From the IMG/VR virus record IMGVR_UViG_3300037193_000252, positions 1-34,563 of that record: a DNA stretch of 34,563 bases; one strand, 5' to 3'. Under the pieces are notes generated by a model. That model searched no databases, had not been told where the DNA came from, and saw only the letters and a list, made by a program, of their open reading frames with translations. Within the stretch, counting starts at the first letter, position 1. Each line of letters begins with the position of its first letter. A program made the translations under genes and the position numbers. The stretch is from a virus. This document shows, one piece after another, positions 1-20,330 of this stretch.

Positions 1-279
1 CAGCACCGGCAGGTCGATCTCTGACCCCGGCGCGATGACCAACGTCAGCGGGTAGTCACGAGTCGCACCGACCGGGACCGACCGAAGCGCCCACTTGTTG
101 TGCCGGACATCGTAGGCCGTGTGACCCGCGTTCGGCCCCGCCACCCGCACGTTCACCTGCGGCACCGGCCGGTGGAACATCGCGTCGTGCTCGTACTGGT
201 GGTCCAGCAGCCGCGCCGTAACGTGGCCCTTCGCCTCGGACCCGTACTGCGCGCCGACGACTACCTTGATCGACTTCAT
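1..279 (-). CDS. purZ: PurZ-type N6-succino-2-amino-2'-deoxyadenylate synthase, N-terminal part (cut by window edge)
   Basis: Only the first 93 residues are in the window. The start is the ATG at 279, overlapping the upstream stop by 4 bp (ATGA). The N-terminus reads KVVVGAQYGSEAKGH, the nucleotide-binding loop of the adenylosuccinate synthetase family, followed by VRVAGPNAGHT, the family's GNNAGHT-like motif. Housekeeping PurA has GDEGKGK; here the catalytic Asp is Ser (residue 14), the substitution described for phage PurZ. PurZ joins aspartate to dGMP, giving the succino precursor of 2-aminoadenine deoxynucleotide (dZMP). The second Gly of the loop is Ala and the final Lys is His. It is the last visible gene of a polymerase-led operon. 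A plain PurA is less likely because of the Ser. The C-terminal part cannot be checked here. Confidence 0.9.
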   Translation of the reverse strand, partial: MKSIKVVVGAQYGSEAKGHVTARLLDHQYEHDAMFHRPVPQVNVRVAGPNAGHTAYDVRHNKWALRSVPVGATRDYPLTLVIAPGSEIDLPVL

Positions 280-446
280 TTGTCCTGCTTCTCCTCAGGG
301 TGAGAGTTGAACACGTCCTGGTCGGTGTCGAACGACTTCTTAACCGGGTTGTTCTTGAACGTTGCGACCGCTGCAATCACGCACAGCGCCGCGAACCCGG
401 TTGCTGCGATCACAGCCGCGACCGCGAGGATTTGGCCAGTGCTCAT
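276..446 (-). CDS. Small single-pass membrane protein (56 aa) just upstream of purZ
   Basis: Not recognised as a known family. The ATG at 446 follows a strong AGGAGG ribosome site and overlaps the stop of the preceding gene by 4 bp; the stop overlaps the purZ start by 4 bp, so it is translationally coupled on both sides. Residues about 5-28 (from QILAVAA to AVATF) form one hydrophobic segment, and the C-terminal half is charged (KKSFDTDQDVFNSHPEEKQ). With its short N-terminus it probably crosses the inner membrane once with the charged tail on one side. Its role is unknown; location in the polymerase-purZ operon suggests early expression. Confidence 0.75.
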   Translation of the reverse strand: MSTGQILAVAAVIAATGFAALCVIAAVATFKNNPVKKSFDTDQDVFNSHPEEKQDK

Positions 447-622
447 CGCTTGTGCCTCCTGTTGATCTGGCGCGACTTGCGTGCGACCCGGTTCTTGGCC
501 CGGTTCTTCCGCTTGACCTTCTCCCTGCGAACCGCGTTGTTCGCAGCGGTGATCGCGCGCTTGTGTCGCAGTCTCCGACGCTCCCGCTCCGGAGTTAGCA
601 CCTTGCGCTTCAGCTTGACCAC
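443..622 (-). CDS. Very basic 59-aa protein between DNA polymerase and purZ
   Basis: Starts at a GTG at 622, with GGAG six bases upstream, 9 bp after the polymerase stop; it ends in a 4-bp overlap with the next gene. By my count 27 of 59 residues are Lys or Arg (for example RERRRLRHKR and KVKRKNRAKNR) against three Glu, and the whole is probably one long helix. Such composition is typical of nucleic-acid or ribosome-binding peptides. No family is recognised. The coupling to DNA polymerase upstream and purZ downstream makes a replication-linked DNA-binding role plausible, but this is inference. Confidence 0.75.
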   Translation of the reverse strand: MVKLKRKVLTPERERRRLRHKRAITAANNAVRREKVKRKNRAKNRVARKSRQINRRHKR

Positions 623-631
623 ATTACTCTC

Positions 632-2692
632 CTACGCCTTGAAGTCCACGCCGCCTGGCACCTGCGGGAACCAGTCCTTCCACAGCTTGTTCCCGAAGTC
701 CGCGCACGTCTTGGCCATTTGCTCCCCGTGCAACGTATCAGGGAGCAGCAGAACCTGCGAGTCGTGGACTGTCAACACGAGGCCAGCCCCGTATTCGTCC
801 ATTCCCTGACCCCGCAGGTACGTATCCGTCGCGTAGATCCAGTCCAACCCGAACTGAGCCAGGTTCCCCTGAACTCGCTGGTTGAACGCCTTGTGCGTCT
901 CCTCGTGCTTGCCGAACCAACGCCGCTCGCCGTTGATCAGCTCCACCCAGCCCTCGCCGTACCGCGCCTGACGGAGCGCCACCCTGCGTGAGGTCTTGTC
1001 GATCGCACGACTCCACGCCGGGAACAGGAAGTTCCAGTCCCGCGTGATTCGGATCGACTCCGGCTCAGTCAGCCGGATCCCCGTTTCCTTGCTCACCATC
1101 TTGCGGAACGTGTCCGGTCCAGCGCCGAACCCGAGGCTGAAGTTGCCTCGCTTACCAACCTGCCTCCACTTGTCGTGGAAGAGCTTGCTGTCGGGATCCA
1201 CGTCCGGGAACAGGTTCTTGGTGGTGTAAGTGTGGAGGTCCTCGCCGTTGCGGATCATCTCCAACATCTTCTCGTCGTGCGCAAACAGCGCGCCAACCCG
1301 TAGCTCCGCCTGTTGCAAGTCCAGCTCCCACAACTTCCAGCGAACGCCACCCATCTCCAGGCGGGAGACCGCAAGCGCGATCAGGTCGCGTGGCGTCAAG
1401 ATCCCCGCGAGGATCCCGTGGTCCGACAGCCGGTAGTCCTGCGGGATCGCCTGCAAGTTGACTCGCTCCACCGAAAACCGGCCGGAGACCGTGCCGGTCA
1501 CCCGGAACCGCGTCCGGAGTCGGCCGTCCGTGCCCATCGCGTTGGCGTAACCGTTGTACCACATGCTGGCAGCGGTCGTTACCTTGTTGTACTCGGCCCA
1601 ACGCTCCGCGTACGGAACCCGGTCCTCCACCATCCGACCCAAGATCTCCGCCGTCAGGCTAGGAGCGCCACCATCCGTGAGCTGGTAAGCCGGGATATTC
1701 GGGTGCTCGACCCCGCGCTTGCTCACTCCCTCCGTGAAGAAGAACGCGTTAGCCGCGTCCCGTGTCGGCGGTTCGAACGGCAGGTTCCGCTCCACTTCAC
1801 CGGCCCGACGCATGCACTCGTCGCCAGCCTCCCGCGACTCGACCTCAGCATATGGCAACCCCCGCCACTCCATCCGCGTGGTCGGCTTGATCGCCTTCTC
1901 CAGACGTCGCAGGATCGCCGCGTAATCCGCGTCCGCAGTCGGCCGGTTGTCGATCTCGTGCACCTGCCACGCCTTGAGCCGGATCGTCAACCGCGCGTCG
2001 ATGTCGGCGTATTCACCGATCACGTCCCACGGCATCAGGTCCCAGCGACCCTTAGGTAGCTTCGCCTTTTGCAGGTACTTCTTCACCTTCGCCTGCTCGT
2101 CGGCCACATCCTCGCCGGTGAGAATGTGCATGACCTCCTTCAATCTAGTAGTCGGCTTGATGCTGTTGCCCAGCGTCATTAACGGCCACAGGTAGTTGGT
2201 CACGTTCATGGTGTCCCAAGTCAGGTGCTCCAGCGCTTCCTCGACATGGAACCCACAATCCGGCCACAGACGCGGAGCCTTGGCCCACATCAGGCAGTCG
2301 AACGGCCCGTTGTGCATGACCAGGCTACCGACCCGCCGCAGCCAGTCATCCAGCGACCTCCATTCGAACGAGTCCAGGTTGTCCGCCTCGGGCCACAACG
2401 CCTCTTGCCCGTTGTCCTCCGGCTTCCCGGCCTTGCCCTGGTCGAACGGCCACGCCACAGATGCGACGTATTCGATCCGGCCGGATGCGTCGATCACTTC
2501 TTCCTGGTACGTCAGCCGGTCACTGAACTCGGCCCATTCGCCTTCGTAGTCGATCCACGCCACCGAGGCTGTCGACGCACGTGCGCCGTCGTCTGGGAAC
2601 AGCCCACTCGTTTCGGTGTCGAAACTCGCCTCGTCCGGCACCAGACCGGTCTTAGCCAGCGCGACGAGATCGCTGGGTCGAAGTCGCTCCAT
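632..2692 (-). CDS. Family A DNA polymerase with 3'-5' exonuclease (DpoZ candidate)
   Basis: A 686-residue replicative polymerase. The proofreading domain has Exo I DTET (D25, E27), Exo II HNGPFD (N128, D132) and Exo III YADID (Y228, D232), so it looks active. The polymerase domain has the T-x-S-G-R and NLQAIP block (about 399-417), motif A DLQQAELR (D458, E463), motif B R510-x3-K514-x3-F518-x3-F522, and motif C VHDS (H643, D644). In E. coli Pol I motif C is HDE and the last O-helix aromatic is Tyr; here these are Ser645 and Phe522. There is no 5' nuclease domain. PolA-type polymerases named DpoZ accompany purZ in aminoadenine phages and prefer dZTP; the shared operon with purZ supports that role. 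AGGAG precedes the ATG. Confidence 0.93.
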   Translation of the reverse strand: MERLRPSDLVALAKTGLVPDEASFDTETSGLFPDDGARASTASVAWIDYEGEWAEFSDRLTYQEEVIDASGRIEYVASVAWPFDQGKAGKPEDNGQEALWPEADNLDSFEWRSLDDWLRRVGSLVMHNGPFDCLMWAKAPRLWPDCGFHVEEALEHLTWDTMNVTNYLWPLMTLGNSIKPTTRLKEVMHILTGEDVADEQAKVKKYLQKAKLPKGRWDLMPWDVIGEYADIDARLTIRLKAWQVHEIDNRPTADADYAAILRRLEKAIKPTTRMEWRGLPYAEVESREAGDECMRRAGEVERNLPFEPPTRDAANAFFFTEGVSKRGVEHPNIPAYQLTDGGAPSLTAEILGRMVEDRVPYAERWAEYNKVTTAASMWYNGYANAMGTDGRLRTRFRVTGTVSGRFSVERVNLQAIPQDYRLSDHGILAGILTPRDLIALAVSRLEMGGVRWKLWELDLQQAELRVGALFAHDEKMLEMIRNGEDLHTYTTKNLFPDVDPDSKLFHDKWRQVGKRGNFSLGFGAGPDTFRKMVSKETGIRLTEPESIRITRDWNFLFPAWSRAIDKTSRRVALRQARYGEGWVELINGERRWFGKHEETHKAFNQRVQGNLAQFGLDWIYATDTYLRGQGMDEYGAGLVLTVHDSQVLLLPDTLHGEQMAKTCADFGNKLWKDWFPQVPGGVDFKA

Positions 2693-2716: not shown

Positions 2717-3010
2717 TCAGCCCTGGTAGGCGCTGAGCTTGATGTATTCCTCCAGCTTGGCCGGGTCCTTGAAGTCCGGCTCTTCGAACTCGACCGGCGG
2801 AAAGCCCAGATCCATCAAGGCCGCCTGGAGCTCCGCGACCTTCTTGGTCTGTTGCGCCATGATCGCGACACCATAGTTGTGCTTGTGCGTGATCTCACGT
2901 ACCAGCTTTCCGGCTCGCTGCTTCTGGTTGTAGCTGAACCGCTCGATGAACTCGGGGTCCGCGAGCGGTTTGTAGCCGCTGATGTCCGTAGCGTTCGCCT
3001 TCACCGACAT
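2717..3010 (-). CDS. Conserved-looking 97-aa protein of unknown function upstream of DNA polymerase
   Basis: First gene of the polymerase-purZ operon, 24 bp before the polymerase start. The ATG at 3010 has an AGGAG ribosome site and lies about 40-50 bp below a predicted promoter. The protein is soluble, with a basic helical middle (YNQKQRAGKLVREITHKH) and an acidic, proline-containing C-terminal part (GFPPVEFEEPDFKDP). No motif or family is recognised. Its position between the putative origin and the polymerase makes a replication accessory role conceivable. Confidence 0.8.
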   Translation of the reverse strand: MSVKANATDISGYKPLADPEFIERFSYNQKQRAGKLVREITHKHNYGVAIMAQQTKKVAELQAALMDLGFPPVEFEEPDFKDPAKLEEYIKLSAYQG

Positions 3011-3447: not shown

Positions 3448-6090
3448 TTACTTTGAGCCCTGCGCTCTCTCGATTACCAACTCAGCCACCTCGCCAGTCA
3501 GCTTCTTGTAGTACGCGAGCCCGCCGTTCTGGACCCGGACCCGCTTAGACCGAGCCCCGAGAACCTCCGCCTGGTCGGTTAGAGCGATCGCCGTCTGGGT
3601 CCTCTTCTCAATCCGGCCGCCTTGTTCCCGTGTCCAGGCCTGCGCCAACAGGTCCGTGTTGAAATAGACCTCCAGCTCCCGCTCCCCGAACAACGCCTGC
3701 TTAGCCGACCCGCGAGCGTAGTTCTTGACATACGCCGGTGTCGCGATCCCACGCTCGTCGGCCGCAGCCGTCGCCTTGTCCGGGTAGTTCCACTGACGCA
3801 AAGCCCACGGCAAGATCTCCAGCGTCAGAGCGTTGTCACCTTGAACACCGGATTGGGATCCTGCGTCACCGGCAACCCACGCATCAATCCGACTACCGTG
3901 TACCCCGGATCCCTCCCAGGCACTTCGAAGATCGGCAGGAGACGTCGCCAGGAGGGCATCCAGAAGTCGGCCTCCCGTTCTAAGGATAGCGAACTTGTCA
4001 CCGCTTCGTCCAGACCCCACGCGAAGTGCTGGGAGGAGTGACACCGCGTCGTCAGCGTAAAGCAGAGCCGACTTAACGAGCCAGCCTGCAACAGCTGAGA
4101 GACCGTCTGGGTACTTTTCCCGCAGTTGAAGCACATCGTCCCACTGGGGTCGAGAAGCATCCCTAAGCGACATTCGTCCGGTCGGACTTCCAGCCTTGAG
4201 AATAACGGCTCGGTCGAGTAGAGCCTTCTGCGTACCGAGTCCAAGAGCCTCACCGCTGATGACGATAGGCGAGACGATGGTGGCGCTTCTGATTGATTCA
4301 CGGTCTTCCGCCATTTTGGCTAGCGTGCCGCCGGACGTCGCAGCCCGGATCAGCTCCATCAGGTTGGACGGGTCGTCCAGGTCGTCGACCCAGACGATCC
4401 CGTTACGGTGACTCGCCGCGATGTTCCGCAGCGAAGCCATGGTCGGGTTCATCTCCCCGCTCGTGTTGCCGTTGAGCTCGATCATCTGAGCGAAGAACCC
4501 GTTCGTCTTGCCGGACTCGCTCGGAGCCTCGACCGCCATGAACGGGAACAGCGCCGTCCGGCGCTCGATCTGCGGTTTGATCAGACACGCGGCCCACCAC
4601 GCGCCGAACACCGCCGTGACGTCCTCGAAGTGGAAGGTCATGACCTCCGCCAGGACCCGCCGCGCCTCGTCCTCATCCGCACCGAACCCGTAGCGGTGCG
4701 GCGCAACGCCACCAGTCAGCAGTGTGGGGTTCGCGATCACGCCGCACTGGCTGGATTCGAAGACCTCGTCGCCGGTGATCACGCCGTCATGCGTGATGAA
4801 CCCGCCTTCACCGCCGATGATCTCCTCGTCCCAACCCAGCGTCTTCGCTACCTTCACGATCGGCGGGTGCTGAGACTCGAGGTAACGCTGCAACCGCAGG
4901 CCAGGGCTGCCGTCCTTCGGCGACATCTTCACTGGCGGCAGGATCGTGCATGCCATTGCCGAGAAGAAAGACCGGAGCTTCCGGTCGTCACCGAACGTCG
5001 CGCCAGGGATGACCGTGTCGATCTCTTCGACGTCCCCGACACCACGACGCTTACGCCGGATCTTCACCCAATACGTCCGCGCCGCACCTTCCTCGACCAT
5101 CACGCCTTTCGCTACGAGATCGAAATCAGCGTATTCCTCCAAATCGTAGCTGGTCGTGCCGGTCTCGTCCTTGGTAGCGACCTGTGTCATGATCACGGTG
5201 TTGCCGGACTTCAACCAGCCGCACGACGCGTCGAGCGCACGCTCCGGATTGCGTGTGTGCTCACCCCGCCACACCGACCTGACGACCTTGTCGAACTCCG
5301 CGTCGTCCAGCGGGTCACCCATCAACAGGTTGGCCTGGTGGCAGTGCGCCGTGTACAGGTCTTCCATGTTGTGGTAGGTCTTGGCGTAGTGACCGGCCAC
5401 CCGCGTCAGCCAGTCGTTGCGTCCCGTGCCCTCACCGCCAGGCGGCCGTGACAGCAGCGTGGTGAGCATGCTCCTGGTAGCCGCACTGGCCTGCCCAGCA
5501 TCGTCCGTGCCCGCTCCTGACTTAGGCGCGTGCGCACGCAGGGACCCGTCCAGCAGGGCTGGTGGCGCGTCGGCCGCACTGGAAAGCGGCTTTTCCCACG
5601 TGTAAATGTGGCCGGACTCGTGGGTTGACGGTGGCGCTATTACGCCGGTGCCGTCCGCACGCACATCGAAGCTGATCCCGTTTGGGTCGTCCTCCTTGTC
5701 GGGGTGTACTGACCATGAGTGGACCGGATGATCGTCCGGCCAACTGTCAGGGATCTTGAACCAGTAGTGCGTGCCTTTGCTCGTCTTGACCTGAGCGGCC
5801 GAGTCCAGAACTTCGTCGCTGAGCTGTTCCCGCCACCAGGCATCGCCAGCCTCCGTGTCGCAGTCGATGACAATCACTCGCGACATCAGACCTGTCATGA
5901 CCCAATAATTGCGCTGTCCCGAGCCTCCGAACCACTGGGACAGCATCGATTCGGTCTTGACCTTCTGATAGTTCTGCCACTTGACAATCGGCGCTTTCTG
6001 CTTGTACCGCGCCGGTAGGACGTTCAGGCCCCACCCAGCCAGACTTTGTGCCGTAGCCAATGAGTCGACTGGATTGGACAGTTTCGCCAT
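3448..6090 (-). CDS. Primase-polymerase / helicase fusion
   Basis: An 880-residue replication protein. The N-terminal ~185 residues match bifunctional Prim-Pol (archaeo-eukaryotic primase) domains: VIVIDCD (D76, D78), KGTHYWF (H108) and FDVRADGTGVIAPPS (D142), ending in HIYTW. A linker leads to an ATPase with Walker A EAPSESGKTNG (about 521-531) and Walker B GIVWVDDLDD (about 564-573). It should make primers and unwind DNA at the fork, beside the polymerase genes. I chose the ATG at 6090 with an AGGGATGGGG ribosome site instead of a TTG seven codons upstream. It lies 80 bp after the SSB-like gene and is followed by the iteron region. Confidence 0.9.
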   Translation of the reverse strand: MAKLSNPVDSLATAQSLAGWGLNVLPARYKQKAPIVKWQNYQKVKTESMLSQWFGGSGQRNYWVMTGLMSRVIVIDCDTEAGDAWWREQLSDEVLDSAAQVKTSKGTHYWFKIPDSWPDDHPVHSWSVHPDKEDDPNGISFDVRADGTGVIAPPSTHESGHIYTWEKPLSSAADAPPALLDGSLRAHAPKSGAGTDDAGQASAATRSMLTTLLSRPPGGEGTGRNDWLTRVAGHYAKTYHNMEDLYTAHCHQANLLMGDPLDDAEFDKVVRSVWRGEHTRNPERALDASCGWLKSGNTVIMTQVATKDETGTTSYDLEEYADFDLVAKGVMVEEGAARTYWVKIRRKRRGVGDVEEIDTVIPGATFGDDRKLRSFFSAMACTILPPVKMSPKDGSPGLRLQRYLESQHPPIVKVAKTLGWDEEIIGGEGGFITHDGVITGDEVFESSQCGVIANPTLLTGGVAPHRYGFGADEDEARRVLAEVMTFHFEDVTAVFGAWWAACLIKPQIERRTALFPFMAVEAPSESGKTNGFFAQMIELNGNTSGEMNPTMASLRNIAASHRNGIVWVDDLDDPSNLMELIRAATSGGTLAKMAEDRESIRSATIVSPIVISGEALGLGTQKALLDRAVILKAGSPTGRMSLRDASRPQWDDVLQLREKYPDGLSAVAGWLVKSALLYADDAVSLLPALRVGSGRSGDKFAILRTGGRLLDALLATSPADLRSAWEGSGVHGSRIDAWVAGDAGSQSGVQGDNALTLEILPWALRQWNYPDKATAAADERGIATPAYVKNYARGSAKQALFGERELEVYFNTDLLAQAWTREQGGRIEKRTQTAIALTDQAEVLGARSKRVRVQNGGLAYYKKLTGEVAELVIERAQGSK

Positions 6091-6170
6091 GTTCACCCCA
6101 TCCCTGTTCAAAGACGCCGATGGGGACGGACCGCGTCTGCGATCCGCCCCCGCCGGTCAGTAGGCCGACG

Positions 6171-6713
6171 TCAGAAGTCGTCGTCCGGGTCTTCCGCATC
6201 TTCGTGGTCCACCGAGTCGAGCGTGTAGAAGCCGGTGATCTGGTTGCCCAGTTGGCCCTTGCGTTTCCCGGCGTTGATGGTCTCGACGGACAGCGCGATG
6301 ATGCACCGTTCGCCGATCATCTCGTCGGTGTCCGAGTCCGTGGTGTAGCCGAACGCCTCGAAGAACTGCTTGATCTTCCCAGCGAGGAACTCGTTCCGGG
6401 CAGCCCAGGCCTCTTCGAGGGTCTGCCCCTTCTTGAGGCCCTTGGCCGGACCCTTGTAGTCGTCCGGGACCTTCTTGTCGTCGCCGGGGAGGACGAGGTT
6501 GGTGAACTGCCGACCCGGCTGGACGTTGCCCTCCAGGTCGGTGATGTCCTCCATCTCGACACCCCACATCGCCGCACCGCTGGACTGCGCGATGCGGTCC
6601 TCGACACCGGCCAACGTGGCGACATACTTCCCGGCCGGGAGCGGCTCGAACCCTTCGGTCGGCTCCGGGGCCTCGTTCGCCTTCTTGGCCATTTTCTTAT
6701 CGAGCTTCGGCAT
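6171..6713 (-). CDS. SSB-like single-stranded DNA-binding protein (DUF669-like)
   Basis: A 180-residue protein with a central beta-rich region (about 22-165), a GPAKGLKKG basic segment, and an acidic C-terminus ending DAEDPDDDF. An acidic tail with terminal Phe is the hallmark of phage and bacterial SSBs, where it recruits partner proteins. The start is the ATG at 6713 with a GA-rich leader (AGAGAAGAGA). It lies between a Sak4-like ATPase and the primase/helicase, the usual order of a phage recombination-replication module. The assignment rests on size, tail and context, not on a clear fold motif. Confidence 0.7.
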   Translation of the reverse strand: MPKLDKKMAKKANEAPEPTEGFEPLPAGKYVATLAGVEDRIAQSSGAAMWGVEMEDITDLEGNVQPGRQFTNLVLPGDDKKVPDDYKGPAKGLKKGQTLEEAWAARNEFLAGKIKQFFEAFGYTTDSDTDEMIGERCIIALSVETINAGKRKGQLGNQITGFYTLDSVDHEDAEDPDDDF

Positions 6714-6731: not shown

Positions 6732-6771
6732 AGTTGTTACAGTTGATGAAGTTGTTGAGTTGTGTCAGTTG
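6732..6771. repeat. Five direct repeats of AGTTG (CAACT on the coding strand)
   Basis: AGTTG begins at 6732, 6741, 6750, 6758 and 6767, that is with 9, 9, 8 and 9 bp spacing, over the gap between the Sak4-like and SSB-like genes; the last copy overlaps the stop codon of the former. The regular spacing is unlike the neighbouring sequence. It could bind a protein or be chance low complexity in a translated leader. Confidence 0.5.
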
Positions 6772-7769
6772 TCGTTGTCCTGCTCGTCCTCCTCGTCATC
6801 CTCCGGCTCGTCCTTCGCCGTCTTGACGTCGAGCGACGTCTTGACCGCGTCGTCCAAGTCGTCCTGGAACGGGTCCTCCTCCTCGGTCAGCTCGCCGTGG
6901 AGGTAGGCGATGATCCGGTCACCCATCGGCTCCGCCATGATGCGGGGCAAGATGTCGAACCGGTCCTTGACCCGGAAGCGCTTCGACCCCTTGGTCATCG
7001 CGCGGAACGGGCCGTCCTCGTCTCCAGCCTTCATGTATAGCGACATGTCGACGTAGCCGAGGATGTCCTGTTGGAGCGCCGGTGTGATGGACGGGCCGAC
7101 GATCAGCTTCTTGGTCTCGTCGTCCTTGTCCCGGCGTTCGAGGGCCGTGACGAAGAAGTGGCACGGCAGGTCACGGAACTTCCGCAACAGATCGCGGACC
7201 ATCTTCGACATCGTGCCATAGTCGGCGCGATCGACGAAGTCAGGGTCCGGATCCTTGCCCTGGCGCTGAAGCGCCTTGACGCGCTTCTCCTGAACGCCAC
7301 CCAGGATGGTCTGGTGAATCTCCGACGCGGAGTCCCAGGAAGTGGCGAACCACGACGTGGGGTCCTTGAGCAGGTCCGCGTGGACGGTGCGGTAGACCTT
7401 CTCCAGTGACAGCCGGGTGAGGCGCTGACCCTTCGCGGGGTCCGGCCACAGCATCAGCTTGCTGGTGTCGACGCCACGCTTCTCCAGGGCCTTCCGCTTG
7501 ACGCCACCCTCAGCGTTGATGATCAGGACCTTGCTGCCCTGCGGCGCGATGTTGGCGAGCCGGGCAATCGACGTCGTCTTGCCCGCACCCTCCCGCCCCC
7601 ACAGCAGCACGTTGGCGAAATCGGTCGAGTCATCGATCGCGGTGAACCAGTCGCCGGTGTCCGGCTCTTCGCCGGGGTTGACGACCTCCTCGTCGTTGAC
7701 GAGCGTGTCCTGCTCCGCCGCAGCGGTCTTCTTCGCGACCGACTTCTTGGCGGTCGTTGCTCTGGGCAA
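6765..7769 (-). CDS. RecA-fold ATPase, Sak4-like (AAA_24)
   Basis: A 334-residue P-loop ATPase with Walker A GREGAGKT (58-65), a Walker B-like WFATSWDSASE (D146) and a very acidic C-terminus (EPEDDEEDEQDNDN). Sak4-type proteins are single-strand annealing recombinases that work with an SSB; the SSB-like gene follows directly. The N-terminal ~45 residues are Lys/Ala/Asp-rich and probably disordered. The start is TTG at 7769, with AGGAG five bases upstream; the reading frame runs open above it, but that part would read through a strong stem-loop and has no ribosome site. Confidence 0.82.
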   Translation of the reverse strand: MPRATTAKKSVAKKTAAAEQDTLVNDEEVVNPGEEPDTGDWFTAIDDSTDFANVLLWGREGAGKTTSIARLANIAPQGSKVLIINAEGGVKRKALEKRGVDTSKLMLWPDPAKGQRLTRLSLEKVYRTVHADLLKDPTSWFATSWDSASEIHQTILGGVQEKRVKALQRQGKDPDPDFVDRADYGTMSKMVRDLLRKFRDLPCHFFVTALERRDKDDETKKLIVGPSITPALQQDILGYVDMSLYMKAGDEDGPFRAMTKGSKRFRVKDRFDILPRIMAEPMGDRIIAYLHGELTEEEDPFQDDLDDAVKTSLDVKTAKDEPEDDEEDEQDNDN

Positions 7770-7812
7770 TGCTGCTCCTAATGGTCTGCCTGGGTCGCCA
7801 GGTCGTTTGGGA

Positions 7813-7859
7813 TCCGGCCCCCGCTTGTGGGCTTCCCCTCCGCACGCGCGGGGGCCGGA
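7813..7859 (-). terminator. Strong stem-loop, probable transcription terminator
   Basis: A perfect 12-bp inverted repeat: TCCGGCCCCCGC at 7813-7824 with its complement at 7848-7859, and a 23-base loop. It lies in the gap between the exported-protein gene (ends 7911) and the ATPase gene. No U-tract follows, as is common in actinobacterial terminators. A weaker hairpin (7873-7899, with TTGAC/GTCAA arms) precedes it. Confidence 0.6.
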
Positions 7860-7910
7860 CGACCAGTGGATCACGCACTTTGACGGGGTGTCAAGCGTGC
7901 GTTTGGAAGG

Positions 7911-9947: not shown

Positions 9948-10916
9948 TCAGTGCCTCGTCCTGTTCACGGTGAACCCGTACTCGACCATGACCTCGTCCG
10001 GGTTCCGGCCGGTCCGCATCAGCAGATGCGGTTCCTTCACGTCGCACTTCCAGCCGCAGGAGCGCGGGTCCGGCGCGGAGTACCGAGCCGCATAAGACGG
10101 GTCATCCGGATACGCCGCACGCGCCGCGTAATATGCGTCGAGTGCGAGGTTGTCCAGTTCCTTGTCCATCCGGTTTAGGTACGTCCGGCTCATCCGCGTG
10201 TCCAGCGGCATGAACGACTTGTTGCGCTGCGTCCGGTTCGCGTTGTGCAGCGAACCCTGCACCTTGCGGCCGATTGAGCGCATCCCCCACGTGTACAGCC
10301 CGAACTGGTCGTCGATTTCGAGATCCATCTTCGACGGCAGGTTCGCGCCGGACTTGTGGTCGATCACCCACAGGTTGCCGGTCGACCACTCGCGCACGAG
10401 CAGGTCGATCTTCATCTTGAGATGGTAGCGGCTGGGGTTGCCGTACGCGTCCGGCAGCGGCTGGATGATCTGGTGTTCGACACCGACGACCCGCCAGTCT
10501 TCATCGACGCCGTAGTACTCGACGTAGCCGTCGTACATCCACTCGATGAGCTCCTGGACCTCGGACTGCTCGCCGGTGGTCGGATGCACCAAGTACGCCA
10601 TGACCTCGTCCCGTGCCCGCTTAAGCGTCTCCGCGACAAGCTTCTTCGGGACCCGGCCCCGGTGCGCGTCCTGTACCTCCTTGATAACGCGGTAGTGCGC
10701 CTCCATCACCAGGTGGTACAGCGAGCCCTTATCGAGCGCGCTGCCCGGTTTGGTCGGCTTGGTCCACCGGCGCTGGTACAGCAGGTGATGTTTGAGCGGG
10801 CACTGCCGGAAAGTGTCCAGCTCCGAGTACGACACGATCTGAATCGAGTCCGGCGGGATGATGTCGTACGGCTTCGCCACCCGCTTGGCGACCTTCTTCG
10901 TCGCGGCCTTGGGCAT
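9948..10916 (-). CDS. Cas4/RecB-like PD-(D/E)XK exonuclease
   Basis: A 322-residue nuclease. The family signature is clear: SYSELDTFRQCPLKHHL (C39), KGSLYHLVMEAH, MKIDLLV, the catalytic VIDHKSG, and DDQFGLYTW (the QxxxYxW-type motif). Near the C-terminus SCGWKCD supplies C287 and C291. Cas4/AddB enzymes use four cysteines for a 4Fe-4S cluster; I see only three in suitable places, so the cluster may be altered or lost. It probably processes DNA ends for recombination with the Sak4-like and SSB-like proteins. The N-terminal ~15 residues are Lys/Ala-rich. ATG at 10916 with GGAG upstream, in the tail of the previous gene. Confidence 0.87.
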   Translation of the reverse strand: MPKAATKKVAKRVAKPYDIIPPDSIQIVSYSELDTFRQCPLKHHLLYQRRWTKPTKPGSALDKGSLYHLVMEAHYRVIKEVQDAHRGRVPKKLVAETLKRARDEVMAYLVHPTTGEQSEVQELIEWMYDGYVEYYGVDEDWRVVGVEHQIIQPLPDAYGNPSRYHLKMKIDLLVREWSTGNLWVIDHKSGANLPSKMDLEIDDQFGLYTWGMRSIGRKVQGSLHNANRTQRNKSFMPLDTRMSRTYLNRMDKELDNLALDAYYAARAAYPDDPSYAARYSAPDPRSCGWKCDVKEPHLLMRTGRNPDEVMVEYGFTVNRTRH

Positions 10917-11695: not shown

Positions 11696-12295
11696 CTACT
11701 CGTTGCCGTAGATCACCTTCGATAGACGGCCCGATTCCGAACCTTCGAGGATGTAATACCAGCCGTGGAGCTCCGCCGACACGACATGACCTCTACCGCC
11801 GTAGAGCTCCCGGTCGATCGGCTTCGCGACCGACTTGATGCCCTTCCCTCGGAGGATCCCGGCAGTCGGCTTCTGGATGTCCGCCGGTTGCTCGATCATC
11901 AACGTCGGTAGCCAGCCGATGTCTTTGTCCTGGCAAGACGCGCCACGCAGCTCGCAGGTCGTCATCTGACCCGCGTTCAACGCGCGCGTGTGGAGGTAAC
12001 AGTGCTCGTTGTGCCGCCGGACCACGAACTTCATCTGGCCGATCAGCTGCACCGCCTCGAACTCCGACCCGGTCTTCTCCAGCGCCTTGTCGTTGTAGAG
12101 ACGCCACTTTTCGTAGACCAGGATCGGGACCTCGTTGTCCATAACCGACTCCGCCAGTGAGTCGATGAACCCGGCATTGTCGTTGTCGAACTCGACCGCG
12201 CCGACACACTCCCACCCCCATTTGTTGTCGGCCGGGTCGAAGAACGCCACGCCGGTCCAGCGGTCGCCGGGGTCAATCGCCGTCAGCACCGACAC
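11696..12295 (-). CDS. RuvC/RNase H-fold nuclease (Holliday-junction resolvase-like)
   Basis: A 199-residue protein beginning TAIDPGDRWTGVAFFD, the first strand and catalytic Asp (D8) of RuvC-type enzymes, with the second acidic residue in LVYEKW (E62). The C-terminal motif, normally HxxDAxxH, reads HVVSAELHG (H170, S173, E175), so the last acid is replaced or shifted. It would resolve branched DNA during replication or packaging. The start is GTG at 12295, with GGAGG upstream inside the preceding gene (23-bp overlap); a longer open frame to 12370 is Arg-rich shadow sequence. The family assignment is fairly safe, activity less so. Confidence 0.75.
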   Translation of the reverse strand: MSVLTAIDPGDRWTGVAFFDPADNKWGWECVGAVEFDNDNAGFIDSLAESVMDNEVPILVYEKWRLYNDKALEKTGSEFEAVQLIGQMKFVVRRHNEHCYLHTRALNAGQMTTCELRGASCQDKDIGWLPTLMIEQPADIQKPTAGILRGKGIKSVAKPIDRELYGGRGHVVSAELHGWYYILEGSESGRLSKVIYGNE

Positions 12296-12710
12296 AGTCG
12301 TCCTCCTCCGCCTCGGCCGCCAGCCTCGCCGCCTCCGCAGCCTCGTAAGCGTGCCAGCGCCGGTGCGCATGGGCGAAATCCTCCGAATTCGCGAAGATCT
12401 CGTACGACAGGATGTTGCGCCAGGTCCAGATGATCCGGCCTGTGGGAGTCGACACCAACAGACCCGAGCCGATCGGACGCCAGCCCCTCGGCATGTCCCG
12501 GTTCAGGTACGTGTGCTGAGTTCCGTGGATCGTGGTGATCACCAACCAGCCGTCCGGGATCGGCTTCTGTACTGGTGGCGTTTTGCGCGGCGGGAAGACG
12601 CTTGCCGGGGTGACGGGAACGCCACCCACCCGGAGCGGGCTCCCTTTGGGGATGTTCTCCCCCGCAACGTACTCCGGTGGTTTTCGCAACGGTACATCAT
12701 CAATCGGCAT
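12273..12710 (-). CDS. Hypothetical 145-aa protein
   Basis: Not recognised. The ATG at 12710 has AGGAAGGAAG upstream. The N-terminal third is proline-rich and probably flexible (KTPPVQKPIPDG); the middle is beta-rich (WLVITTIHGTQHTYL, LLVSTPTGRIIWTW); the C-terminus is an Ala/Glu-rich helix (YEAAEAARLAAEAEEDD). It overlaps the RuvC-like gene by 23 bp and the preceding gene by 11 bp. Confidence 0.65.
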   Translation of the reverse strand: MPIDDVPLRKPPEYVAGENIPKGSPLRVGGVPVTPASVFPPRKTPPVQKPIPDGWLVITTIHGTQHTYLNRDMPRGWRPIGSGLLVSTPTGRIIWTWRNILSYEIFANSEDFAHAHRRWHAYEAAEAARLAAEAEEDDCVGADGD

Positions 12711-14553: not shown

Positions 14554-15975
14554 TTAGATGATCTCCATGAACTCTGCTGCCGTCAAGGCGCGCATCTGCC
14601 GGTCGGTCTTGGTGGCGAGAAGCCGTTGCTTCTTCATGTCCACCGAGTTGGGAGTGCGGTAGCGCCGGACCGTAACCGGCCGCTCCTGACCCATGCGATG
14701 CACGCGGAATACCGCCTGCTCGTTGCGGTAGCTCTTGAAGCTGTCCTCCACGAAAATCGCCATGTCCGCTTCGACCAGCGTGTGGCCCTCCGCCAGCGTG
14801 TCCAGCGAGCCGACCAGCACTGGTAACTTACCAGACTTGAACGATCTGATCGCAGTCATCCTCTCCCCGGAAGGAATGTCGCCATGGACAATACCGACAC
14901 CAAGCCCCAAGCTCCTGGCCACGTCCGCACACGCCTCCACCGTATCTTTGTAATGGGCAAACACCAACGTCGGCCGGGATCGGTTTTCGAGGTCGTACCG
15001 CAGCTGCTCCAGCTTCCCTCCTCTCGCGTTCCCTTGCATAGTAAGCAACCAAGGACTCGTCGTGATCTTGTGAAGCTGAACGTTCTTGCTTCCCTGGTTC
15101 CACGCGACGACCTCCTGACCTTCGTACTGAGCGTAGAACTCGTTCTTGAGACCGAGGTAGAGCTTCTTGGTAGCGGCATCCATCGGCGTCTTGACGTCCT
15201 GGAAGGTGACTTCAGGCAGGTCGAGGCAATCCTCGCGCCACCGACGCAAGTACTTGCCGTCCAAGTTCTTGCTGGCGAACTCAAGGTAATGTTCACATGG
15301 ATCAGCGGCCGGCCGTGCCAAACATTCCTTAAGCTGCTTCGGCGTACGCGAACACATGAGCAACTCGCCAGCAACCGGCGAGCCGTTACTCCAGCGCGTC
15401 GGCCGACAATCGAACCATTCCTCCGCCCAACGCCAGAACGAGCCAAGATCGCCGCCAGGGTGCGACTCCTGTGGCGAGATCAGCTGAAGTACGCGGAAGA
15501 TCTCGTGAGCCCAGTTCGGAAACGGCGTGCCGGACATCGCCAGCATCTGGTCCGAGTGGCGCGCGATCTCCAGCGCTGCCCACGACTTCATGTTCGGCCG
15601 CTTCGGCGTGTCGCGGCCCTTGACCACGTGGACCTCGTCGAATACGACCGCGTCCCAGCGGCCCTTGACCTTCGGCCGCAGGACCTTGACGGGGGCCATG
15701 CCCTTGCCCTTCGACCGGAAGTCGTTTAGTTGGGAGTAGGGGACGACGGTCCACTTGCTGGGGTCGGCGGACCACTTTTCGAGCTCGTCTTCCCAGGTGC
15801 CGCCTTCAATGACGAGTCCGGGGGCAACGACCAGATTCCGACCTCCGTCGAAAGCCTCGATCGCTTGACGCGTCTTACCCAGACCCGGTTCGTCAGCCAA
15901 AAGCCCGCGTCGAGCGCGTCGGATCCACTCGATTCCTTCACGCTGGTGTTCCTTCAGCGGCAGGCTGCTCGTCAT
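14554..15975 (-). CDS. SNF2/DEAD-box superfamily II helicase
   Basis: A 473-residue ATPase: Walker A DEPGLGKT (28-35), motif II DEVH (113-116), motif III SGTPF (148-152), and motif VI QAVFRVHRMGQERPV (from about 420), the SNF2-type Q-x2-x-R-x2-R-x-GQ. The C-terminal RecA lobe includes TLVFAHYKDTVEA and VGIVHGDIPSGER. Such phage helicases remodel or unwind DNA in replication or recombination. The ATG at 15975 lies inside the end of the XRE gene (38-bp overlap) behind GGAAGGGAAG, so the two are coupled. Length is typical of the small phage members. Confidence 0.9.
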   Translation of the reverse strand: MTSSLPLKEHQREGIEWIRRARRGLLADEPGLGKTRQAIEAFDGGRNLVVAPGLVIEGGTWEDELEKWSADPSKWTVVPYSQLNDFRSKGKGMAPVKVLRPKVKGRWDAVVFDEVHVVKGRDTPKRPNMKSWAALEIARHSDQMLAMSGTPFPNWAHEIFRVLQLISPQESHPGGDLGSFWRWAEEWFDCRPTRWSNGSPVAGELLMCSRTPKQLKECLARPAADPCEHYLEFASKNLDGKYLRRWREDCLDLPEVTFQDVKTPMDAATKKLYLGLKNEFYAQYEGQEVVAWNQGSKNVQLHKITTSPWLLTMQGNARGGKLEQLRYDLENRSRPTLVFAHYKDTVEACADVARSLGLGVGIVHGDIPSGERMTAIRSFKSGKLPVLVGSLDTLAEGHTLVEADMAIFVEDSFKSYRNEQAVFRVHRMGQERPVTVRRYRTPNSVDMKKQRLLATKTDRQMRALTAAEFMEII

Positions 15976-16201
15976 CGTCTTCCCTTCCGTACGCAGCGAC
16001 GAGGAACTTCTCGAAGTCTTGATGGTACTGACCGATCTTCCACGACATCGCTTGAGCTATCAGTTCCCAGCCCATGGTCTCCGAGATCTTGAGCATCTGA
16101 GCCAGGCTCGGCGTGCGATCGCCAGAACGCCACCGGCTCACGGTCGTGTGCTGGACATCAAGCTTCTTAGCGATGTCCACGTTTGAAATCTTCGCGCGCA
16201 T
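15938..16201 (-). CDS. XRE/Cro-type helix-turn-helix regulator (87 aa)
   Basis: Residues about 8-40 (DIAKKLDVQHTTVSRWRSGD) are a clear helix-turn-helix, followed by SLAQMLKISETMGWEL and an acidic tail. It may repress or activate phage promoters. The start chosen is the ATG at 16201 with AGGTG upstream; an ATG ten codons earlier (16231) is possible but lacks a ribosome site. An AT-rich GATATTAAAA (16237-16246) just upstream could be its -10. It is coupled to the helicase gene. Confidence 0.8.
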   Translation of the reverse strand: MRAKISNVDIAKKLDVQHTTVSRWRSGDRTPSLAQMLKISETMGWELIAQAMSWKIGQYHQDFEKFLVAAYGREDDDEQPAAEGTPA

Positions 16202-16305
16202 TTCGCACCTGTCTTGTGTAGTAGGTGACATTCGTGTTTTAATATCCTTGTGCGACCTTCGGGGCTCCGTTGGTGCGGCGTGGGATGGGTTGCCACCTCA
16301 GGGGA

Positions 16306-16350: not shown

Positions 16351-17613
16351 TCAGCCGTCGAGCTCCCGCCGGAGGGCTTCCCGGTCGTTGAACAGCGACA
16401 GACCACGTTCGTAGCGGAAGTTGTTCACCAACCCCAAGATCCGCGTGTAATCCCAACCATCGCTGCGAGCCCACAGACCCGCTTCAACTTGCGCCACCGC
16501 GTACGGAAGACCGAGGCCTTGTAGTCGATACTGCATCAGCGCCGAGTCCTGTGACACATCGACGTGCTTGACCATCTGCGCCGTGTTGACCTCCAGGCCT
16601 TCAAGGATCTTGATCGCCTCGCTGGTCATGAACGCCACTAGATGCGACAGGTCCGGCACGGCGACTCGCTCGACAGACGAGTTCGAAATGTCGCGCTCAT
16701 GATGCAGCGCACCGGCGGACTCTGCGACCGCCGCGAAGTTCGAGCGCACCAAGCGTCCCATTCCGCTGAGGCGTTCCGAGCCGATTGGATTGCGCTTATG
16801 CGGGATAGCGCTGCTGCCAACCCGATCACGTGCCGCTCCCTCCGCGAGCTCTCCGACTTCCGTCCGGCTGCTCAGCCGAACCTCCAGCGCGATCTCTTCG
16901 ACCAGCGAGGCCACCGCGACCAGCCAGCCCGCCCACAAGACCATCCGCTGTCGCGGGATGACCTGTGTGGACGGCAGCATGACAACAGAGTCGCTGGCCC
17001 ACTGCCTAGCCGCTGCCAACCCGACTTCCCGGCCGAGCAGCCGCATGCTGCCGGTCGCACCGGGAGTCTTGAACACAGCCAACTCGTTTTGTAGGATCCC
17101 AGCTTGGTGGCGCAGCGCTGAAATCGTCCCGTTCCAGACAAAGAAACGCCACCCTGCCCGCGTCGGCTCCGCTGCCTGGCCATGTGTCCGGCCGACACGT
17201 GGCGTGTCCTTGTATTGCAGATGTAGGCGGGACAACACCTTTGCCAGCGCGATCAACCGCCGTTCGACCAGTTCGACCACCGTCCGTAGCTGGAGGAACA
17301 GCACGTTGTCGACCAGGTCGGACGAGGTCAGTCCGCGATGGATCACCGACTGCGCGTGGCTGTCCATGTTCTTGGTCCATGTGTACAGGAACGCCACCAC
17401 ATCGTGGCCGGTCGCCTCCTCCTGCTCCGCGATCTCGGGCATCGTCGGAACGCGGAACTGCCGGATGTGCCGGAGTACCTGGTCGGTTACCGTCTCGTCG
17501 CCGAGCTCCCGCCGCGCTTCAAGATACGCCAGCTCGATGTCGCGGTAGTGCTGGAGCCGGTAGTCGTCGCTGAACAGCGTTGTGATGAATGGGTCGCGGT
17601 ATCGCTCGATCAC
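16351..17613 (-). CDS. purB: Adenylosuccinate lyase (phage PurB)
   Basis: A 420-residue member of the fumarase/aspartase superfamily, slightly shorter than typical bacterial PurB. Visible family motifs: GHDVVAFL (H70), HRGLTSSDLVDN (H92), RTHGQAAEPT (H144, the general acid), GSSAIPHKRNP (S267/S268, the catalytic serine loop) and HERDISNSSVER. It removes fumarate from succino-purine nucleotides. In a PurZ phage the expected substrate is N6-succino-2-amino-dAMP, yielding dZMP, a step usually left to host PurB. The start is GTG at 17613 with GGAGG upstream, overlapping the previous stop by 4 bp. It is last in a three-gene operon from promoter P2 and ends at a strong terminator. All catalytic motifs look intact. 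Confidence 0.95.
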   Translation of the reverse strand: MIERYRDPFITTLFSDDYRLQHYRDIELAYLEARRELGDETVTDQVLRHIRQFRVPTMPEIAEQEEATGHDVVAFLYTWTKNMDSHAQSVIHRGLTSSDLVDNVLFLQLRTVVELVERRLIALAKVLSRLHLQYKDTPRVGRTHGQAAEPTRAGWRFFVWNGTISALRHQAGILQNELAVFKTPGATGSMRLLGREVGLAAARQWASDSVVMLPSTQVIPRQRMVLWAGWLVAVASLVEEIALEVRLSSRTEVGELAEGAARDRVGSSAIPHKRNPIGSERLSGMGRLVRSNFAAVAESAGALHHERDISNSSVERVAVPDLSHLVAFMTSEAIKILEGLEVNTAQMVKHVDVSQDSALMQYRLQGLGLPYAVAQVEAGLWARSDGWDYTRILGLVNNFRYERGLSLFNDREALRRELDG

Positions 17614-19580: not shown

Positions 19581-20330
19581 CTACTGGTCAGTTGCCACAC
19601 AAGCCCATATGGTCTTCGAGGCCGGTGGCGTTTCGCTCGTGTCCGCGATCGTTACTTTCTGGGCGGCAAATCCGGTCGGGCAGGTGGCGGGATCGCCAGG
19701 CGGACCCTGCGGGCCAGCTGGTCCCGCTGGACCTGTCGGGCCAACCTCGCCTTGCGGACCCGCAGGACCAGCAGATCCCGCCGGACCAGCCTCGCCCGTT
19801 GCTCCCGTAGCTCCGGTGTCCCCAGTGTCACCTTGTGCACCTTTCTCGCCCTGTTCTCCCTGAGGCCCTGCCGGTCCCTGCGGCCCGGTAGCGCCGATGC
19901 AGCGCGTGGGTTCCAGGAGGCACCGGGGAGAGTTACCGGGAAGCCCCTGCGGACCGCGCGGCCCCTGCGGTCCAGGCGGGCCGACCGGTCCCTCCGGCCC
20001 GCGTTCACCCTGGAGGCCCGGAATACCTTGGATTCCCTGCGGTCCTTGAACCACCTTCTCCGCCGGTTGTGACACCGGCTCCTGGCACTTCGGGTCGTTC
20101 TTCGGAGCCGTCTTGCAGTATTCGAACTGATTGATCTGCTTATCGTTCGACTGCGCCAGCTTGGTTACGTCGCCGCGCGACTCGATCCAGAACACCGTCG
20201 AAACTACGGCGAGCAGCAGAATCGCCACCGCCGCGACAGTTCCGAAAATCCACGCGCGCCGCACGTATTTCGTGCGGTCCAGGTGGCGCGCAACGTCATC
20301 CTGGATCGGCCGCTCGTTCTCGTCGCTCAT
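19581..20330 (-). CDS. Membrane-anchored collagen-like protein (249 aa)
   Basis: Residues 1-25 are charged, about 26-48 ([20 protein letters not shown]) form one membrane segment, then a short Cys-containing spacer ([11 protein letters not shown]). Two collagen blocks follow: 13 Gly-X-Y triplets, a break with CLLEPTRC, then 23 triplets (GAT GPQ GPA and on). A 35-residue C-terminal end has two more cysteines. Collagen-like repeats are common in phage tail fibres and trimerise; the N-terminal membrane anchor is unusual for a virion fibre and suggests a type II membrane protein facing outward. ATG at 20330 overlaps the previous stop (ATGA). Confidence 0.85.

Follow-up and report, generated by a model that had tools for sequence, protein, structure and literature searches.

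The virus record analysed here very likely comes from a tailed, probably actinobacterial phage that makes 2-aminoadenine (Z) DNA by the PurZ0 pathway, with a PurB-like lyase of its own included. The window is the entire record, a linear and probably incomplete stretch of 34,563 bases that ends inside purZ. The initial annotation had proposed that the phage probably builds Z DNA, and at the level of sequence this is supported by a PurZ N-terminus, the adjacent DpoZ and a Wayne-like replication module. Adenine in the phage DNA would thus very probably be replaced by 2-aminoadenine. The features used in the argument are listed below, with the basis of each assignment in brackets.

1..279, minus strand: purZ (PurZ0 type), N-terminal 93 aa, edge-cut; Ser14 in GSEAKGH, GPNAGHT (NF038379)
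276..446, minus strand: small ORF, 56 aa, hydrophobic N-terminus (ORF list only)
443..622, minus strand: small ORF, 59 aa, Lys/Arg-rich (very basic), GTG start (ORF list only)
632..2692, minus strand: dpoZ, DNA polymerase of family A; FDTET motif of a 3'-5' exonuclease, steric-gate Phe in NFSLGFG (NF038381)
2717..3010, minus strand: small ORF upstream of dpoZ, 97 aa, placed as Wayne gp46 (position only)
3448..6096, minus strand: primase/polymerase-helicase, Prim-Pol, PriCT-1 (PF09250 77.5 bits, PF08708 36.6 bits)
6171..6713, minus strand: DUF669-like protein, placed as Wayne gp44 (PF05037 20.9 bits, just under the cut-off of 21)
6765..7874, minus strand: RecA-like AAA ATPase; true start may be downstream of the listed one (PF13479 44.8 bits)
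9948..10916, minus strand: Cas4-type PD-(D/E)XK exonuclease (PF12705 79.8 bits)
14554..15975, minus strand: SNF2-type DNA helicase (PF00176, PF00271)
15938..16231, minus strand: HTH DNA-binding protein (phrog_5414 45 bits)
16351..17613, minus strand: purB-like adenylosuccinate lyase, 420 aa, catalytic residues conserved (TIGR00928, PDB 1c3u, tree, residues)

The purZ fragment at the left edge

The ORF at 1..279 (minus strand) encodes 93 residues from an ATG start and is open at the window edge; its protein reads MKSIKVVVGAQYGSEAKGHVTARL...RVAGPNAGHTAYD...EIDLPVL. A Shine-Dalgarno-like GAGGAG (complement of 291-296) lies 11 bases before the ATG. About a quarter of the gene is present (93 of about 340-390 residues), and the C-terminal three quarters, including the dGMP pocket, lie beyond the end of the record. 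Positions 1-622 had been assigned to a PurZ gene carrying two motifs, GSEAKGH, in which Ser14 replaces the Asp of PurA, and GPNAGHT. Both motifs were read in the ORF, and the assignment held for 1-279 but not for 280-622, which belongs to two unrelated small ORFs. The fragment matched PF00709 in Pfam (E 5e-7) and 136 phage records by tblastn, the best of them 64.5% identical across the full 93 residues (E 4e-25). As judged from these profile and tblastn matches, which exclude chance, the homology is real.

The fragment was assigned to PurZ by model score, by residue and by tree. The NCBIfam PurZ model NF038379 gave 91.5 bits (5e-26), a partial score because the fragment covers 80 of the 293 positions of a model whose full-length cut-off is 300 bits, and PurA models gave only 40, 25 and 23 bits. 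All viral PurZ homologues with a readable loop had Ser in the first glycine-rich loop, at the position of PurA Asp13, whereas Asp stood there in every cellular PurA read and in about 32 viral contigs that pair PurA with PurB. In a 55-protein tree the fragment fell inside the Ser (PurZ) clade with support of 100/100. A PurA placement was rejected by the AU test in this set (p = 0.012) and with the further references SH-Ab 15497, VP5 and Wayne (p = 0.025); these trees and tests use about 86 columns from the 93-residue fragment. As far as a fragment of this length allows, the PurA/PurZ tree therefore groups the edge gene with PurZ and not with PurA, which bears out its earlier identification together with the model scores and the AU tests. 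Among solved structures the best match was 7vf6 (E 3e-14), which also has GSEAKG and is labelled a PurA-like adenylosuccinate synthetase, followed at a wide distance by 7odx, the PurZ of S-2L (E 0.007), and 6fm1, the enzyme of phiVC8 (E 0.04), the phage sources of these two being taken from PMC8342488.

Within PurZ, the tree and identity values indicate that the edge gene belongs with Arthrobacter phage Wayne in the PurZ0 branch and not in the phiVC8/SH-Ab branch. Wayne PurZ0 was the nearest tree row, identity to Wayne-type PurZ0 was 65-67%, and placement in the canonical PurZ clade (phiVC8/SH-Ab type) was rejected (AU p 0.027). Canonical systems (Vibrio phages phiVC8 and VP5, Acinetobacter phage SH-Ab 15497, cyanophage S-2L) share the Ser for Asp replacement and the proposed dGMP-to-dSMP chemistry, but form a separate PurZ clade with a separate DpoZ subfamily and have DatZ/MazZ, not DutZ/DmtZ (PMC12884076, PMC8342488). 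The dutZ gene is present in all 98 PurZ0 genomes (PMC12884076), and in 35 of 35 PurZ0-type loci (L002-L036) we found that a dUTPase/DutZ homologue follows purZ at a distance of no more than about 2.5 kb. In the window, an incomplete record, Wayne, Ghobes and Hiyaa proteins as queries gave no match for DutZ, DmtZ or DUF5664, and comparison with PHROGs and Pfam showed no nucleotide hydrolase among the ORFs that were scanned. Because a DutZ-like gene follows purZ in all 35 loci, dutZ is expected, by analogy, just beyond the cut left edge.

DpoZ and the replication module

The polymerase adjacent to purZ scored 599.6 bits on the NCBIfam DpoZ model NF038381, above the cut-off of 350, and is 44% identical over its length to an Arthrobacter phage DNA polymerase I. 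The helix O steric gate is Phe in this polymerase and in those of Wayne and Ghobes, and Tyr in T7 and D29; Phe is the only mutation that characterises the two DpoZ clades alike (PMC8599892). Wayne polymerase scored 1144 bits on the NCBI 'DpoZ_2' model, so that 'DpoZ_2' denotes the Wayne-like kind, and the PurZ0-linked DpoZ group is named DpoZ-1 in PMC12884076. By sequence the window polymerase is a Wayne-like DpoZ, with a predicted preference for dZTP over dATP.

From the lysis genes onward the order is PurB, HTH, helicase, Cas4, RecA-like, DUF669-like, primase, small ORF, DpoZ and PurZ. This is the order of Wayne (Arthrobacter phage, Korravirus; PMC12884076), with which the window shares PurZ0 (65% over the fragment), DpoZ (44%) and same-order counterparts (gp43 for the RecA-like ATPase, gp29 for the SNF2-type helicase), except at PurB and an HNH gene. 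PurB lies between the lysis genes and the HTH/helicase pair in the window and is absent from Wayne, whereas the HNH gene between dpoZ and purZ is absent from the window; the DUF5664 and DmtZ-DutZ region of Wayne is absent from the record. The 97-residue ORF at 2717..3010 had no family match, and tblastn with Wayne gp46 gave none. The Cas4-type gene matched Microbacterium phage Cas4 exonucleases at the DNA level, and the capsid protein had distant matches only (42%), to Streptomyces and Gordonia phages. The record probably represents part of the genome of a tailed phage that infects an actinobacterium.

Two further genes were observed: one for a collagen-like protein of Gly-X-Y repeats, close to the endolysin gene (19581-20330, minus strand), and one near Cas4 that matches phrog_5202, a family of unknown function (11696-12370, minus strand), at a place occupied in Gordonia phage Archimedes by a RuvC-like resolvase. 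The nearest relative was contig G061, in which the PurB-HTH-helicase order is kept and head and tail genes are related; it lacks purZ because it ends before the polymerase region.

A phage PurB-like lyase

Published accounts give the dSMP-to-dZMP step to a host enzyme, and we found no paper on a phage PurB in Z-DNA phages among the open-access papers searched, although several database records are already named 'PurB-like adenylosuccinate lyase'. The window protein scored 267 bits on TIGR00928, under the cut-off of 326 and with its divergent C-terminus unmatched, and is therefore named PurB-like. It is matched by the adenylosuccinate lyase structure 1c3u (E 4e-49) and retains the catalytic set, namely His92 with the GLTSSD loop, His144 and the SSxxPHKxNP loop. 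It departs from its relatives at Ile270, a conservative change from the Met found in nearly all, and at Ala186, where PurZ-linked relatives have Pro.

We examined how such lyases are distributed and related. PurB was carried by 15 of the 49 PurZ-related records, and the numbers of annotated actinophage PurB-like genes in Gordonia (6) and Streptomyces (5) equal those of PurZ records in these hosts. An adenylosuccinate synthetase homologue was present in 59 of the 80 viral contigs found by PurB alone, with a loop residue of Ser in 23 (the loop of G081 being odd) and Asp in 32; four were not read. In the PurB tree the window protein fell in a set of 25 (SH-aLRT 96), comprising 19 PurZ-linked proteins, six on records without a synthetase and none linked to PurA. 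A careful tree placed it in a 15-row clade of PurZ-linked phage PurBs (98/92). The support of this clade was no longer strong in a smaller tree, and we accordingly grade it as probable; placement of the window protein with cellular PurB was rejected with that smaller set as well (AU p 0.002). The trees suggest that the window PurB probably belongs to a phage lineage that is distinct from cellular PurB and that, among resolved contigs, is seen only with PurZ.

Two more PurZ-linked PurB lineages were found, one in six DpoZ-less contigs and one in Ghobes and Archimedes. The six are viral contigs of 37-43 kb (L023, L024, L026, L027, L028 and L031; records G022, G023, G025, G026, G027 and G030) with PurZ, a divergent adjacent PurB, a DmtZ-DutZ-like gene and Prim-Pol; they have no family A DNA polymerase, an arrangement that recalls S-2L. 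Gordonia phage Ghobes and Streptomyces phage Hiyaa resemble the window in carrying PurZ0, polymerase I and PurB together, and in Ghobes PurB also adjoins the helicase. The window PurB is, however, only 30% identical to that of Ghobes, which is of a separate lineage, and 39% identical to that of Hiyaa, which is located downstream of the dUTPase, unlike the window gene.

Other PurB-bearing records were noted. About 32 viral contigs (L278-L282, L308-L331, L334, L336, L337) have PurA (Asp) with PurB, an AMP-branch module distinct from the one built on PurZ. L299 (record G081) has a synthetase homologue with the odd loop GSCGKG and a PurB in the same contig. In L070 and L071 (records G042 and G041) a divergent PurB lies beside a PurZ homologue and the model match crosses one TGA, at which the 379-residue ORF probably simply ends. 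PurB matches were also seen in 'phage' records of Listeria, Staphylococcus and Enterococcus that carry no annotation (OR846755, OR845001, OR846592 and similar); these are possibly bacterial contamination.

The predicted pathway and its meaning

In the pathway that we propose, PurZ would join aspartate to dGMP to give dSMP, which the phage PurB-like lyase, with or instead of that of the host, would convert to dZMP and fumarate. Host kinases would then yield dZTP, to be placed opposite T by the phage DpoZ in preference to dATP, and a DutZ/DmtZ-type enzyme, expected past the left edge, would clear dATP and supply dGMP. Activity, dGMP use, Z in virions, DutZ and the role of PurB are what we infer here and do not read from the sequence. 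The simplest reading of the lyase is that it performs or boosts the dSMP step, and the phage-borne enzyme likely completes the Z pathway.

The active site and fold of PurB would equally serve SAMP, and the phage might make Z-DNA with a PurB that acts in general purine supply (SAMP to AMP, and the AICAR step). Cellular PurB is bifunctional, and SAMP and dSMP cleavage are the same chemistry; PurA-linked viral PurBs exist, and most Arthrobacter and Microbacterium PurZ phages do without PurB. The PurBs of PurZ phages nevertheless form lineages apart from the PurA-linked ones, purB and purZ are adjacent and divergent in the six contigs, and AMP made in this way would feed the dATP pool that these phages deplete. 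We consider general supply possible but doubtful. The chances are about even that there is a large group of PurZ0 phages, the window phage included, whose own PurB is distinct from cellular and PurA-linked viral PurB and specialised for dSMP to dZMP.

A decaying locus, in a virus that itself has a broken or degenerate purZ and has gone back to A-DNA, is very unlikely. The gene is indeed cut at the record edge with its remainder outside, but purZ is intact over its 93 visible codons, as are DpoZ and PurB, and the cut falls where a linear and probably incomplete record stops. An ordinary PurA making AMP precursors in a phage with normal adenine is also very unlikely. By superfamily the edge gene is an adenylosuccinate synthetase, and PurA (Asp) does occur with PurB in about 32 other viral contigs, but that reading is largely refuted by Ser14, the model scores, the tree and the AU tests, and DpoZ lies next door.

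The preferred reading, a Z-DNA phage of the PurZ0 type, concerns a system that is already known and uncommon, which the window phage extends by one uncultivated and divergent lineage; what specialists may find new is the PurB lineage linked to PurZ. The existence of contigs with PurZ and PurB but no family A polymerase suggests that phages other than S-2L, too, may be able to live with Z-DNA and no DpoZ. A phage PurB dedicated to dSMP would supply the missing phage step and give a fuller Z-DNA gene set, with the pathway phage-encoded through dZMP and no reliance on host PurB. Why some Z phages need a lyase of their own, and Wayne-type phages do not, would then become testable.
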